Below, piece after piece: positions 13,052-34,027 of a DNA stretch of 64,000 nucleotides; position 1 is the first letter of the stretch; each line of letters starts with the position of its first letter. The stretch lies in assembly GCF_000803645.1 (NCBI RefSeq), contig NZ_CP009122.1:658501-722500 (forward strand), read 5' to 3'. Origin of the DNA: Sphingopyxis fribergensis. GTDB lineage: Bacteria; Pseudomonadota; Alphaproteobacteria; Sphingomonadales; Sphingomonadaceae. The translations under genes were made by a program, and so were the position numbers. Below the pieces are notes generated by a model. The model did not search any database, was not told the origin of the DNA, and was given only the letters and a program-made list of their open reading frames with translations.

Positions 13052-14182
<1,131 letters not shown>

Positions 14183-14183
<1 letters not shown>

Positions 14184-14827
14184 TGCGCGGGTTCGTTTCG
14201 ATCTTTTGTGCGGTCGGCTTCAGCATTGCTGGAGCCGACTCCGCACTTGCCCAGAACGGCGCGATGTGGGTCGATGACAAGGGGCGTACGACAATCCTCG
14301 GATATGGCGGTCCCGACACAGGATCGCCGATTTCGGCCAATACCCCGGTCGGAGACATGGTGGATTTATTCGATTCGGTCTGCTTGCCCAAGGCGGGGAA
14401 GCCTCATGACGCGGCGACCACGTTGGCGGCGGAAAATCGCCTCGAAGCCCGGCCGTTTATCATTGCCGGTACAAAGAAAGAGCCGCCAATAGAGCTTGCG
14501 ATCTGGCATGCTCCGGGGGCAGTTCTCGCCGCCACAGATGGCTTTTTTGCAGCGCCTCAAGCGCAGTGCAATGCAGTCTTCTATGTGAATGCTTTGCCTG
14601 ATCGAGCCGAGCTTGTCTCTGCCATGCAGAGCAAATACGGCGCCCCGGTCAACGCCGATGAGGCGACGGACAAGAACGGCAAGCCCCGAAAATATTACAC
14701 ACCCGAATGGTCGATCACGTCCAACGGCAACGCGCTCATGGTGAGCGCAACCCTGATGGCTGCGAGCAGATCTACGCCTGGCAACCGCGTCCACTTGGCC
14801 GCACGACTAAATGGAAACGTTAAATGA
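14183..14827 (+). CDS. secreted hypothetical protein between mdh and sucD
   Basis: A 214-residue protein I do not recognise. It begins with a clear signal peptide (hydrophobic core about residues 4-18, likely cleavage after A23 in ALA-Q), so the mature part is periplasmic or exported. The mature chain has two Cys (in DSVCLPK and QAQCNAV) that could form a disulfide. It starts in the mdh stop (TGATG) and overlaps sucD by ATGA, so it is locked into the TCA operon. Codon choice looks richer in A/T third positions than its neighbours, which may mean later acquisition. It occupies the position where sucC is often found. Confidence 0.75.
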
Positions 14828-15714
14828 GCATCCTCATCGACAAGAATACCAAGGTCATCACGCAGGGGATGACCGGTGCCACCGGCACCTTCCACACCGA
14901 ACAGGCGCTCGCCTATGGAACGCAGATGGTCGGCGGCGTGACGCCGGGCAAGGGCGGCACGACGCACATCGGCCTACCGATGTTCAACACCGTCGAGGAA
15001 GCAAAACATGCGACCGGCGCGACCGCGTCGGTCATCTATGTGCCGCCGCCGTTCGCCGCCGACTCGATCCTCGAAGCGATCGACGCCGAGGTCGAACTGA
15101 TCGTCGCGATCACCGAAGGCATCCCGGTGCTCGATATGGTCAAGGTGAAGCGTGCTCTCAGCGGTTCGAAATCGCGCCTGATCGGCCCGAACTGCCCCGG
15201 CGTGCTGACCCCCGGTGAGTGCAAGATCGGCATCATGCCCGGCAGCATCTTTTCGAAGGGCAGCGTCGGCGTCGTCTCGCGCTCGGGCACGCTGACCTAT
15301 GAGGCGGTGTTCCAGACCACGAACGTGGGCCTTGGCCAGACGACTGCGGTCGGCATCGGCGGCGACCCGGTCAACGGCACCAACTTCATCGACGTGCTCG
15401 AACTGTTCCTCGCCGACGAAGCGACCAAGTCGATCATCATGATCGGCGAAATCGGCGGCGACGCCGAGGAACAGGCAGCGCAGTTCCTGATCGACGAAGC
15501 CAAGCGCGGCCGCAAAAAACCGATGGCCGGCTTCATCGCGGGCCGCACCGCGCCTCCGGGCCGCCGGATGGGCCATGCCGGCGCGATCGTGTCGGGCGGC
15601 AAGGGCGATGCCGAAAGCAAGATCGCGGCGATGGAAGCCGCGGGCATCAAGGTGTCGGCGAGCCCGTCGGAACTCGGCTCGACCCTCGCCGAAGTGCTGA
15701 AGGAACGCGTCTGA
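14824..15714 (+). CDS. sucD: succinyl-CoA synthetase alpha subunit
   Basis: A 296-residue SucD of standard length. The CoA-binding Rossmann domain is N-terminal, GPNCPG lies at 121-126, and the phosphorylated active-site His is H251 in [10 protein letters not shown]. With the beta subunit it forms succinyl-CoA synthetase, which couples succinyl-CoA cleavage to ATP or GTP formation. The start ATG overlaps the previous stop (ATGA). The beta subunit gene sucC is not in the window. A strong hairpin follows the stop, separating sucD from sucA. Confidence 0.96.
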
Positions 15715-18620: not shown

Positions 18621-18652
18621 GCCCAGAGCCTAATCCCCAAGGAACTGCACCT

Positions 18653-19903
18653 ATGAGCACCGAAGTCAAAGTCCCCACGCTGGGCGAAAGCGTTACTGAA
18701 GCCACGATCGGCGAATGGCTGAAGAAGCCCGGCGAGGCGGTTGCGCTCGACGAGCCCATCGCGAGCCTTGAAACCGACAAGGTCGCGGTCGAAGTGCCGT
18801 CGCCCGTCGCCGGCGTGATGGGCCAGCAACTCGCCGCGGTCGGCGACACCGTCAACGTCGGCGCGGCGATTGCGACGATCGAGGCCGGCGGTGCGGCGGC
18901 TGCTCCGGCACCGGCCGCTGCTGCCCCGGCGTCCGCACCGGCTGCGAAGGCCGAAGCCGCTGCGCCGGCTCCCGCCGCGACCGCAGCGCCGGTCAGCGAG
19001 AGCGTCGATACGGTCACTACCATGTCGCCCGCCGTCCGTCGTCTCGTGCTGGAGCATGGCGTCGACCCGACGAAGATCCAGGGTAGCGGCAAGGACGGCC
19101 GGCTGACCAAGGAAGATGTGCTCGCGGCCGCGAACAACGCGCCTGCCGCCGCTCCGGCTCCGGCCGCTGTTGCTGCCGCGCCCGTCGCGGGTGGCACGCC
19201 GGGCCGCAAGGAAGAGCGCGTCAAGATGACGCGCATGCGTCAGACGATCGCGAAGCGGCTGAAGGCGGCGCAGGACACCGCCGCGATGCTGACGACGTTC
19301 AACGATGTCGACATGTCGGCGGTGATGGCCACGCGCGACAAATATCGCGAAAGTTTCGAAAAGAAGCATGGCGTGCGCCTCGGCTTCATGAGCTTCTTCA
19401 CCAAGGCGGTCGCGCTCGCGGCGCACGATATCCCTGCGGTCAATGCGCGCATCGATGGCGACGAGATCGTCTATCACGACTATCTCGATGTCTCTGTCGC
19501 GGTCAGCGCCCCGAACGGCTTGGTCGTGCCCGTCGTGCGCAATGCCGACAGCCTGAGCTTTGCCGACATCGAAAAGGCGATCGCCGACCTCGGCAAGCGC
19601 GCCAAGGACGGCACGCTGACGATCGACGACATGACCGGCGGCACCTTCACCATCTCGAACGGCGGCGTGTTCGGCGGCCTGATGTCGACCCCGATCATCA
19701 ACCCGCCGCAGTCGGCGGTGCTCGGCCTCCACCGCATCGAGGATCGCCCGGTCGTGCGGAACGGCGAGATCGTGATCCGCCCGATGATGTATCTGGCGAT
19801 GAGCTATGACCACCGCCTGATCGATGGCCGCGAGGCGGTGACCTTCCTCAAGACGATCAAGGAAGCGATCGAGGATCCGACGCGGTTGCTGATCGATCTT
19901 TAG
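18653..19903 (+). CDS. sucB: 2-oxoglutarate dehydrogenase E2 (dihydrolipoyl succinyltransferase)
   Basis: A 416-residue E2 subunit with one lipoyl domain (K43 in ETDKVAVE), an Ala/Pro linker (about 80-118), a peripheral-subunit-binding domain (about 123-158), a second Ala/Pro linker and the catalytic domain ending in SYDHRLIDG with H387 and D391. It accepts succinyl from E1 and passes it to CoA; LpdA reoxidises the lipoyl group. The gap to lpdA, normally short, is filled by a GIY-YIG gene between two hairpin repeats, beginning 9 bases after this stop. Confidence 0.96.
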
Positions 19904-19911
19904 CGCTATGC

Positions 19912-19939
19912 GCTCCTGCGAACGCAGGAGCCCAGGGTG
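19912..19939 (+). repeat. hairpin repeat, left copy
   Basis: GCTCCTGC-GAAC-GCAGGAGC is an 8-bp stem with a GAAC tetraloop, followed by the single-stranded tail CCAGGGTG. The tail and loop type match the right copy in inverse orientation, and the GAAN-loop plus CCCAG plan recurs at 33948-34027. Confidence 0.8.
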
Positions 19940-19974
19940 GGACAAGCTGCCATTCGGTCTTCACGGAGAATTGA

Positions 19975-20268
19975 ATGAACAAACCCGGATATATCTGCCT
20001 GATGGCCAGTGGCCGCAACGGGACGACATATTTGGGTGTTACCAGTGATCTTCTGACGCGGGCTTGGCAGCACCGCAACGAAGTGATCGACAGCTTCAGC
20101 AAGAAATATGGCTGCATGCGGTTGGTCTGGTACGAGGCGTTTGACGATATTCAGCAAGCGCGTCAGCGCGAGCTGCAAATGAAGAAATGGAAGCGGGCGT
20201 GGAAAGTTGAACTGATCGAACGCGATAATCCACAATGGCTGGATTTGTTCGACAGGCTATCGCTTTGA
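19975..20268 (+). CDS. GIY-YIG nuclease family protein
   Basis: A 97-residue single-domain GIY-YIG protein of the small bacterial group. GYICLM and TYLGVTS form the two halves of the signature, the conserved Arg is in LLTRAWQHR, and the catalytic Glu is in QRELQMKKW. There is no DNA-binding domain beyond the nuclease core. GGAGA lies 5 bases before the ATG. The reading frame uses A/T-rich codons more than sucB or lpdA, suggesting a separate origin. It lies between inverted hairpin repeats, which could be its substrates. Family members cleave DNA, but the biological role of this short class is unknown. Confidence 0.88.
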   Translation: MNKPGYICLMASGRNGTTYLGVTSDLLTRAWQHRNEVIDSFSKKYGCMRLVWYEAFDDIQQARQRELQMKKWKRAWKVELIERDNPQWLDLFDRLSL

Positions 20269-20296
20269 CACCCTGGGTTCCTGCGTTCGCAGGAAC
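20269..20296 (-). repeat. hairpin repeat, right copy (inverted)
   Basis: On the minus strand this reads GTTCCTGC-GAAC-GCAGGAAC followed by CCAGGGTG. Compared with the left copy, the second base pair from the stem base is T:A instead of C:G, so the stem is kept. It starts directly after the GIY-YIG stop codon. Confidence 0.8.
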
Positions 20297-20312
20297 ACTT
20301 ATGGAGTGAGTT

Positions 20313-21710
20313 ATGGCTGATTACGACTACGACGTCCTTGTCATCGGTTCTGGCCCCGGCGGTTATGTCGCGGCGATCCGCGCGGCGCAGCTGGGCCTGA
20401 AGACTGCGTGCGCCGAAGGGCGCGAGACGCTGGGCGGCACCTGCCTCAACGTCGGCTGCATCCCGTCGAAGGCAATGCTCCACGCCTCGGAATATTTCGA
20501 CGCCGCCGCCAATGGCGCGATGGCGAAGATGGGGATCGACGTAACCCCCAAGCTGAACCTGCCCGCGATGCACGGCCAGCGGATCGACGCGGTGAAGGGC
20601 CTGACCGGCGGCATCGAATTTCTGTTCAAGAAGAACAAGGTCGACTGGCTGAAAGGCTATGCGAACTTCACCTCCGCCGACACGGTCGAGGTTGCAGGCA
20701 AGGCCTATCGCGCGAAGAATATCATCATCGCCACCGGCTCGTCGGTGACGCCGCTTCCGGGTGTCGAAGTCGATAACGACAAGCAGGTCATCGTCGATTC
20801 GACCGGCGCGCTCGAACTCGCGAAGGTGCCGGGCCATATGGTCGTCATCGGCGGCGGCGTGATCGGGCTCGAACTAGGCAGCGTGTGGCGCCGCCTGGGT
20901 GCGAAAGTGACTTGCGTCGAGTTCCTCGACCAGATCCTGCCCGGCATGGACGGCGACGTCCGCAAGGAAGCGAACAAGATATTCAAGAAGCAGGGCATCG
21001 AATTCAAGCTCAAGACCAAGGTCATCAAGGCCGAGGTAAAGGGCAAGAAGGCGGTCCTGACGCTCGAACCCGCCGCTGGCGGCGATGCCGAAACGCTCGA
21101 AGCCGATGTCGTGCTCGTCTCGATCGGCCGCCGTCCGAACACCGAAGGGCTCGGCCTCGACAAGGCGGGCCTCGCGGTCAACCAGCGCGGCCAGATCGAA
21201 ACCGACCATGATTTCGCGACGCAGGTCCCCGGCATCTGGGCGATCGGCGACGTCATTCCGGGCCCCATGCTCGCGCACAAGGCGGAGGACGAAGGCATCG
21301 CCTGCGCCGAGAATATCGCCGGGCTGACCGGAATCGTGAATCACGACGTCATCCCGTCGGTCGTCTACACTTGGCCCGAAATCGCCGGCGTCGGCCTGAC
21401 CGAAGAGCAGGCGAAGGAAAAGGGCGAGGTCAAGGTCGGCAAATTCCCGATGCTCGCAAACAGCCGCGCCAAGACCAACCACGAACCCGACGGCTTCGTA
21501 AAGGTGATCGCCGATGCCAAGACCGATCGCGTGCTGGGCGTTTGGTGCATCGCGAGCGTGGCGGGCACGATGATCGCGCAGGCGGCGCAGGCGATGGAAT
21601 TCGGCGCGACGTCCGAAGACATCGCCTATACCTGCCACGCGCATCCGACGCACAGCGAAGCGATCAAGGAAGCCGCGATGGCGGTGACGGGCAAGCCGAT
21701 CCACATCTGA
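20313..21710 (+). CDS. lpdA: dihydrolipoyl dehydrogenase (E3)
   Basis: A 465-residue flavoprotein disulfide reductase. The FAD loop GSGPGG is at 12-17, the redox disulfide C44/C49 in GGTCLNVGCIPSK, an NAD-binding GGGVIGLE block lies mid-protein and the catalytic dyad region HPTHSE is near 444-449. It reoxidises dihydrolipoamide of the 2-oxoglutarate complex with NAD+ and may also serve other lipoyl complexes. GGAG at about 20303 precedes the ATG. Position downstream of sucB is conserved in alphaproteobacteria; the intervening repeat unit is the unusual part. Confidence 0.96.
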   Translation: MADYDYDVLVIGSGPGGYVAAIRAAQLGLKTACAEGRETLGGTCLNVGCIPSKAMLHASEYFDAAANGAMAKMGIDVTPKLNLPAMHGQRIDAVKGLTGGIEFLFKKNKVDWLKGYANFTSADTVEVAGKAYRAKNIIIATGSSVTPLPGVEVDNDKQVIVDSTGALELAKVPGHMVVIGGGVIGLELGSVWRRLGAKVTCVEFLDQILPGMDGDVRKEANKIFKKQGIEFKLKTKVIKAEVKGKKAVLTLEPAAGGDAETLEADVVLVSIGRRPNTEGLGLDKAGLAVNQRGQIETDHDFATQVPGIWAIGDVIPGPMLAHKAEDEGIACAENIAGLTGIVNHDVIPSVVYTWPEIAGVGLTEEQAKEKGEVKVGKFPMLANSRAKTNHEPDGFVKVIADAKTDRVLGVWCIASVAGTMIAQAAQAMEFGATSEDIAYTCHAHPTHSEAIKEAAMAVTGKPIHI

Positions 21711-33947: not shown

Positions 33948-34027
33948 ACTTCGTCATCCCCGCGAAAGCGGGGACCCAGCGAGCTGACGTCGCAACTGGG
34001 TTCCCGCTTTCGCGGGAATGACGAAGT
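33948..34027. repeat. 80-bp element of two inverted 32-bp hairpin units
   Basis: Unit 33948-33979 and inverted unit 33996-34027 agree at 30 of 32 positions. Each folds as TYCCCGC-GAAA-GCGGGRA followed by CCCAG. The two mismatches are partners in the stem: C:G in the left copy, T:A in the right. The plan matches the repeats around the GIY-YIG gene, but only 16 bases separate the copies here. Confidence 0.82.

Follow-up and report, generated by a model that had tools for sequence, protein, structure and literature searches.

The sucB and lpdA genes of Sphingopyxis fribergensis, for 2-oxoglutarate dehydrogenase E2 and dihydrolipoamide dehydrogenase, are separated by a gap of 409 bp (19904-20312 of the window, by which is meant the whole 64,000-nt stretch of DNA analysed; Table 1). 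By the ORF list and by reading of the gap its sole gene is a GIY-YIG ORF of 97 codons, enclosed by two hairpins in opposite orientation that both have the form 8-4-8 (stem-loop-stem), the left one being GCTCCTGC-GAAC-GCAGGAGC on the forward strand. Reading of the gap found no content beyond the gene and the two hairpins, just as the first-pass annotation had it when it described 28-bp inverted units around a GIY-YIG gene with nothing else in the sucB-lpdA gap. Its comparison of the units also holds on reading: when 20269-20296 is reverse-complemented and set against 19912-19939, 26 of the 28 bases agree, and the two mismatches are partners in the stem, C:G in one unit and T:A in the other. The full arms, of 33 nt each, are 88% complementary. 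A 24-base unit, with up to three mismatches allowed, has the two gap sites as its sole occurrences in the window (mean of 0 in 100 shuffles), and TCCTGCGNNNGCAGGA has three places in the genome of 5.2 Mb, the two sucB-lpdA sites and one elsewhere, the last with a GAAG loop.

Table 1. Features of the GIY-YIG locus and of the neighbouring part of the window
Feature	Position	Strand	Details
Malate dehydrogenase gene (mdh)	13137..14183	+	Named by eye; start approximate; bounds the mdh-sucD slot with sucD
sucD	14824..15714	+	Named by eye; has the mdh-sucD slot on one side and the sucD-sucA slot on the other
sucB, 2-oxoglutarate dehydrogenase E2, upstream neighbour	18650..19903	+	Named by eye from sequence; start approximate
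Left arm of inverted pair	19907..19939	+	Hairpin 19912-19931, stem 8, loop GAAC, tail CCCAGGGTG toward gene
GIY-YIG nuclease gene	19975..20268	+	97 codons and stop; PF01541 match
Right arm of inverted pair	20269..20301	-	Hairpin 20277-20296, tail toward gene
lpdA, dihydrolipoamide dehydrogenase, downstream neighbour	20313..21710	+	Named by eye; ORF and LpdA search

Two other intergenic regions of the window may be mentioned here. The mdh-sucD gap (14183-14827) is filled by a small ORF that looks exported by eye, and this same slot holds a GIY-YIG unit in the genomes G058, G107, G025 and G081. At 33959-34017 two hairpins of a different family (CCCGCGAAAGCGGG) form an inverted pair without a gene, of which the genome has many.

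PF01541 is the only Pfam match of the gene product (42.8 bits against a cut-off of 22.6), and no HUH/Y1 tyrosine transposase domain is present among its Pfam matches. Y19, R29, E66, K70 and N85 are invariant in an alignment of 54 related proteins, and four of these, Y19, R29, E66 and N85, we take to be the conserved YIG-motif Tyr, Arg, Glu and Asn of the GIY-YIG superfamily, so that both the domain score and the conserved residues place the protein there. Its predicted structure has a pLDDT of 95, and the best structural matches of the model, with weak E-values, include UPF0213 (1zg2), Slx1 and the nuclease domain of UvrC. The top solved-structure match by both sequence and fold is 1zg2, at 21% identity and with weak E-values of 0.016 and 0.0011, and UPF0213 proteins resemble this one in being single-domain GIY-YIG proteins; we know of no hairpin association for them. 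Searches of PADLOC, PHROGs and NCBIfam gave no match to a defence system, a phage family or a protein family, respectively. The median dN/dS is 0.09 for the 36 pairs among nine Sphingopyxis GIY-YIG genes, and the sucB-lpdA protein is evidently under purifying selection. PF01541 is matched four times in the genome, by three small genes and by a 677-codon frame that is presumably UvrC. Each of the three small genes has its own hairpin family, respectively of CCCGCGAAAGCGGG type, with a TCAAG loop, and of the sucB-lpdA type. The second GIY-YIG unit of the genome (L001:593-1353) adjoins what by eye is an apparently frameshifted IS5-like transposase gene.

The consensus from both ends of sucB-lpdA units is TGTGCTCCTGC-GAAN-GCAGGAGCCCAGGG, as derived from 91 of the 93 hairpins found (both L279 hairpins are omitted), all picked for near-perfect stems. 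Four of the eight stem pairs are invariant and four have double-sided changes, in 35 cells against 5.5 after shuffling, a test that leans toward structure because the hairpins were preselected for good stems. G-U pairs make up 3 of 632 stem-pair cells. This rarity suits DNA and is at odds with a role at the RNA level, in which the hairpins would shape the sucB-lpdA mRNA, by way of its stability, its processing or the translation of lpdA, with the gene incidental. The end of the right hairpin just 16 nt before the lpdA start is in keeping with such a role; an Rfam scan without a match, and the lack of any terminator-like site, are not. As to spread, the exact sucB-lpdA hairpin is present at most four times per genome in 60 Sphingopyxis genomes and is absent from 50 of them. 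By comparison the S. fribergensis genome matches CCNGCGNANGCNGG 242 times and the reversed control pattern 66 times. Of 100 of these 242 places that were listed, 12 have a related core, CCTGCGAAGGCAGG, several of them as inverted pairs. It is the stem type, and not the exact sucB-lpdA hairpin, that is dispersed in the genome.

Among described repeats the hairpins bear comparison with the CGTC-1 class of REPs, which according to a 2013 survey have an 8-bp stem, a 4-nt loop and a CCA-type tail, occur in pairs of opposite orientation, and are apparently without a dedicated transposase (PMC3733652). All of these sequence features are found in the sucB-lpdA hairpins. The differences are that the terminal tag CGTC (or TGTC/CCTC) is absent, the tags in the window ending in GC and GT, that the stem begins with bases other than AT, and that copies are few, two exact and one GAAG-loop TCCTGCGNNNGCAGGA in the genome, against the high copy number of CGTC-1 (PMC3733652). 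Among 158 hairpins close to units of the suc operon 10 have CGTC, and near other units it is at the outer side in 83, the inner side in 35, both in one and neither in 84, of 203. CGTC REPs were found mostly in alpha-Proteobacteria, and the dRS3 element of Neisseria was equated with CGTC-1 (PMC3733652). The dRS3 pattern, given as ATTCCC(N8)GGGAAT (PMC3898611), is present in the brackets of some GIY-YIG genes, such as L293 and L305.

The bracketing of small GIY-YIG genes by inverted repeats is general. Scored as the ungapped inverted match between the two flanks, it reaches 20 or more at 91 of 113 loci in the Sphingomonadaceae (three of this genome plus 30 and 80 others, the stronger matches among those listed) and in none of 316 control windows shifted by 1000-1150 bases, the largest control score being 19; the threshold of 20 was chosen after the controls had been inspected, and the shifted windows contain less intergenic DNA than the true flanks. 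The other 22 loci of this sample score below 20, and at a score of 16 the counts are 98 of 113 loci, among the matches listed, against 15 of 316 shifted windows. Outside the family, in a phylum-wide search in which the genes were located by tblastn and 30 loci, the stronger of the matches listed, were read, 14 of the 27 loci from beyond the Sphingomonadaceae are bracketed at 20 or more and 13 score below it, against none of 114 shifted windows. The first-pass annotation had named related genes that as a rule lack hairpins as the pattern contrary to its reading; bracketing, with the scope just given, is instead the rule. That REPs are common in intergenic DNA and simply adjoin the gene by accident is a notion to which the frequency of other-family REP-like hairpins in this genome, the CCNGCGNANGCNGG matches above, lends something. 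Chance of this kind is hard to reconcile with the shifted windows, and also with the Sphingopyxis sucB-lpdA gaps, in which all eight that contain a GIY-YIG gene are bracketed at a score of 18 and none of the 23 with other long content is. It is contradicted further by two randomization tests that follow, and we consider it very improbable.

In the first of these tests the hairpins of 91 bracketed loci from 54 genomes (those of the 113 with a bracket score of at least 20) were compared with the hairpins of the locus having the nearest protein in another genome, and their similarity was 24.1. When the paralogues within a genome were given each other's hairpins, over 22 genomes and 59 loci, it fell to 15.5 (sd 1.2), and the observed value was reached in none of 1000 trials. 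The second test takes pairs of loci that are close in the gene and unrelated around it. Among 512 pairs with at least 74% DNA identity, 75 have unrelated flanks, one of them with a 34-bit flank match and the rest with none, and 58 of these have both loci bracketed. The hairpin score of the 58 is 18.7 against 11.6 when they are re-paired (sd 0.8, maximum of 14.0 in 500), with the reservation that they draw on 54 shared loci in all and are not independent. Because non-syntenic pairs still outscore re-paired ones, shared synteny is not the reason for the match of hairpin with protein, and the hairpin family evidently follows the protein and neither the genome nor the neighbourhood. A separate clade of 48 GIY-YIG proteins gives a further view of this, with 37 having GTCGAAGG-type (type C) hairpins, two having other kinds and nine being without a call. 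Copies of CCTGAGCNTGTCGAAGG have a median of 14.5 in the 42 genomes with the type-C clade and 0 in the 77 without it, of 119 in all, and in the genera having both carriers and non-carriers the carriers are higher in eight of eight. Counterexamples are nine of the 42 carriers, with none of the tested pattern, and ten of the 77 non-carriers, with at least ten copies.

In a tree of 192 distinct sequences from 201 GIY-YIG proteins, all 61 from the suc operon fall in one clade of 69 (SH 94), of which 48 are from the sucB-lpdA slot, seven from sucD-sucA, six from mdh-sucD and eight from other loci (L110, L124, L127, L128, L129, L132, L135 and L138). A tblastn search of these eight loci for mdh, sucD, sucA and lpd gave no match. 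The suc operon of one genome, G116, contains two units, and, to go by the coordinates as read, at least 20 of the 119 family genomes have lpdA and a unit no more than about 6 kb apart. Three Rhodospirillaceae-like MAGs (L142, L145 and L150) have GIY-YIG genes that are 84-90% identical in DNA and flanks with no blastn match between them. The match of L142 with L145 is unbroken across hairpin pair, gene and hairpin pair and ends at the outer hairpin edges. L145 and L150 match from the start of the gene as far as the right pair's edge, and in L150 the left pair is inverted. The three suc slots, the eight other loci, the L142/L145 block and the gene-less pair L266 described below indicate that gene and hairpins together form a unit that has changed place over evolution, which agrees with the earlier proposal that the gene may be moved with its flanking hairpins.

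The sucB-lpdA slot has relatives of the unit in Sphingopyxis, Sphingobium, Sphingomonas, Novosphingobium and Parasphingorhabdus, and at 47 loci the distances between them follow those of SucB and LpdA (Mantel r 0.67; permutation maximum of 0.15 in 2000). A recent insertion at this site is rejected because the unit is in several genera and its distances track those of its neighbours; to judge from these comparisons it is an old and mostly vertically inherited resident. Occupancy within Sphingopyxis is patchy. Of 60 gaps 56 were read (three of those left out are without a top LpdA match and one is cut by a contig end), and eight have the GIY-YIG gene, their positions on a tree of 600 bp of lpdA, with many weak forks, being as scattered as shuffled labels. 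The copy of L250 (G136) has in-frame stops, and both its hairpins keep perfect 8-bp stems. The 48 gaps without the gene comprise one with a same-kind hairpin pair alone, 12 with other-family pairs, 12 that are short (10-62 bp) and 23 with other sequence, these last three classes having been assigned by reading; by eye several of the 23 (L039-L067, L245-L263) are lipoprotein-like or AIG2-like. The gap looks like a hotspot of turnover.

The first-pass annotation had looked to empty sites in close relatives. Gene-less gaps are indeed there, and a clean empty site is not: by reading, none of the 12 short gaps has flanks like those of the occupied allele. Nearest to one comes L266, a gene-less hairpin pair of 101 bp. 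It looks like a fusion of the left hairpin pair seen in L048, L058 and L065 with the right flank of gene-bearing alleles, a form as would be expected from loss or gain of the gene plus one hairpin between hairpins facing the same way. The same left hairpin also recurs between other neighbour genes in a few Sphingopyxis genomes (L068 and L089; L075, L086 and L088), there in gene-less pairs whose second hairpin has another stem. For the possible action of the hairpins on mRNA the gaps cut both ways, as the 12 that by reading have other-family pairs without the gene would suit it, and the 12 short ones, which have no hairpin at a stem criterion of at least 7 (one, L268, has an imperfect hairpin), would not. 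With the same bracketing at many unrelated loci also against it, this role seems unlikely.

Divergence that matches the neighbours' suits a stationary gene. Here a comparison from Neisseria is relevant, where Ssn proteins, reportedly the subject of work by Chenal et al. in Nature Communications in 2025, are said to be GIY-YIG site-specific single-strand nucleases with cognate repeats. By analogy these would be the nearest known enzyme kind, sharing with the present case a small GIY-YIG protein that has a cognate repeated sequence, with cognate repeats beside the gene, and differing in that here this exact repeat hardly occurs away from the gene, the site of the gene is a core operon, and the unit has been relocated. 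The earlier remark that no element of this make-up had been described is in that light probably too strong. Were the sucB-lpdA protein a nuclease of the Ssn type that stays in place, its hairpins would be single-stranded DNA cut sites used in policing DNA uptake or recombination, and the gene would have moved only by ordinary homologous recombination between repeats. Several alleles do have hairpins that face the same way about the gene, which would permit the L266 deletion. The vertical signal, the purifying selection, the small spread of the exact hairpin and the reported Ssn work in Neisseria all speak for this, and we treat it as a serious possibility, if not quite an even one. Harder for it to accommodate are the units of one clade in three suc slots and eight other loci, the block boundaries at hairpin edges, and the greater number of type-C hairpins where the cognate gene is present.

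The reading that we prefer, and think probable, is that of a REP-type unit in which a small GIY-YIG gene is combined with its own cognate REP-like hairpins, tails inward, as a GIY-YIG counterpart of the RAYT ‘REPtron’. The comparisons show that bracketing is general, that the hairpin family goes with the protein also where no neighbours are shared, and that gene and hairpins have been relocated in evolution; an action of the enzyme on the hairpins, by recognising or moving them, we infer. The protein would bind its own hairpin as extruded or single-stranded DNA and would cut at the hairpin edge; the freed hairpin-gene-hairpin strand might then be exchanged into other copies of the hairpin by host repair or recombination, and in this way gene-bearing units and gene-less hairpin pairs (REPINs) may replace each other. 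GIY-YIG enzymes are hydrolytic. To our knowledge none is a transposase, which counts against a mobile unit of REP type, as do the hardly spread exact hairpin and the divergence that follows the neighbours.

GIY-YIG homing endonucleases also combine this catalytic domain with a mobile gene, which interrupts its own recognition site and usually lies inside an intron or intein. In the present case the Rfam scan showed no intron, no intein was seen, and the gene is intergenic between two intact ORFs, with recognition-like hairpins flanking it. A search of the available literature found no paper on an association of small GIY-YIG genes with flanking hairpins. The analogy with RAYTs and REPs drawn in the first-pass annotation has gained from the bracketing, the paralogue swap and the non-syntenic pairs, which tie the nuclease to its own hairpins. 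The likeness lies in an enzyme gene flanked by its own REPs and in the existence of gene-less inverted pairs, and the difference is that a RAYT is an HUH/Y1 enzyme with GTAG REPs (PMC3733652) and the sucB-lpdA enzyme is a GIY-YIG nuclease.

A wider and more tentative suggestion, which we put forward as possible and somewhat doubtful, is that small GIY-YIG nucleases are the missing mobilising enzymes of CGTC-type REPs and that they constitute a second and chemically unrelated REPtron system, in which each nuclease would recognise its own hairpin on single-stranded DNA and drive the exchange of units and REPINs. The 2013 survey did not settle which enzyme, if any, is responsible for moving CGTC REPs (PMC3733652), and a GIY-YIG partner would fit that gap. 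With three GIY-YIG genes and three hairpin families in one genome, specificity can be compared within a single genome, and a GIY-YIG gene whose hairpins go with it from one site to another is a direct and testable candidate for the mobilisation of CGTC REPs.
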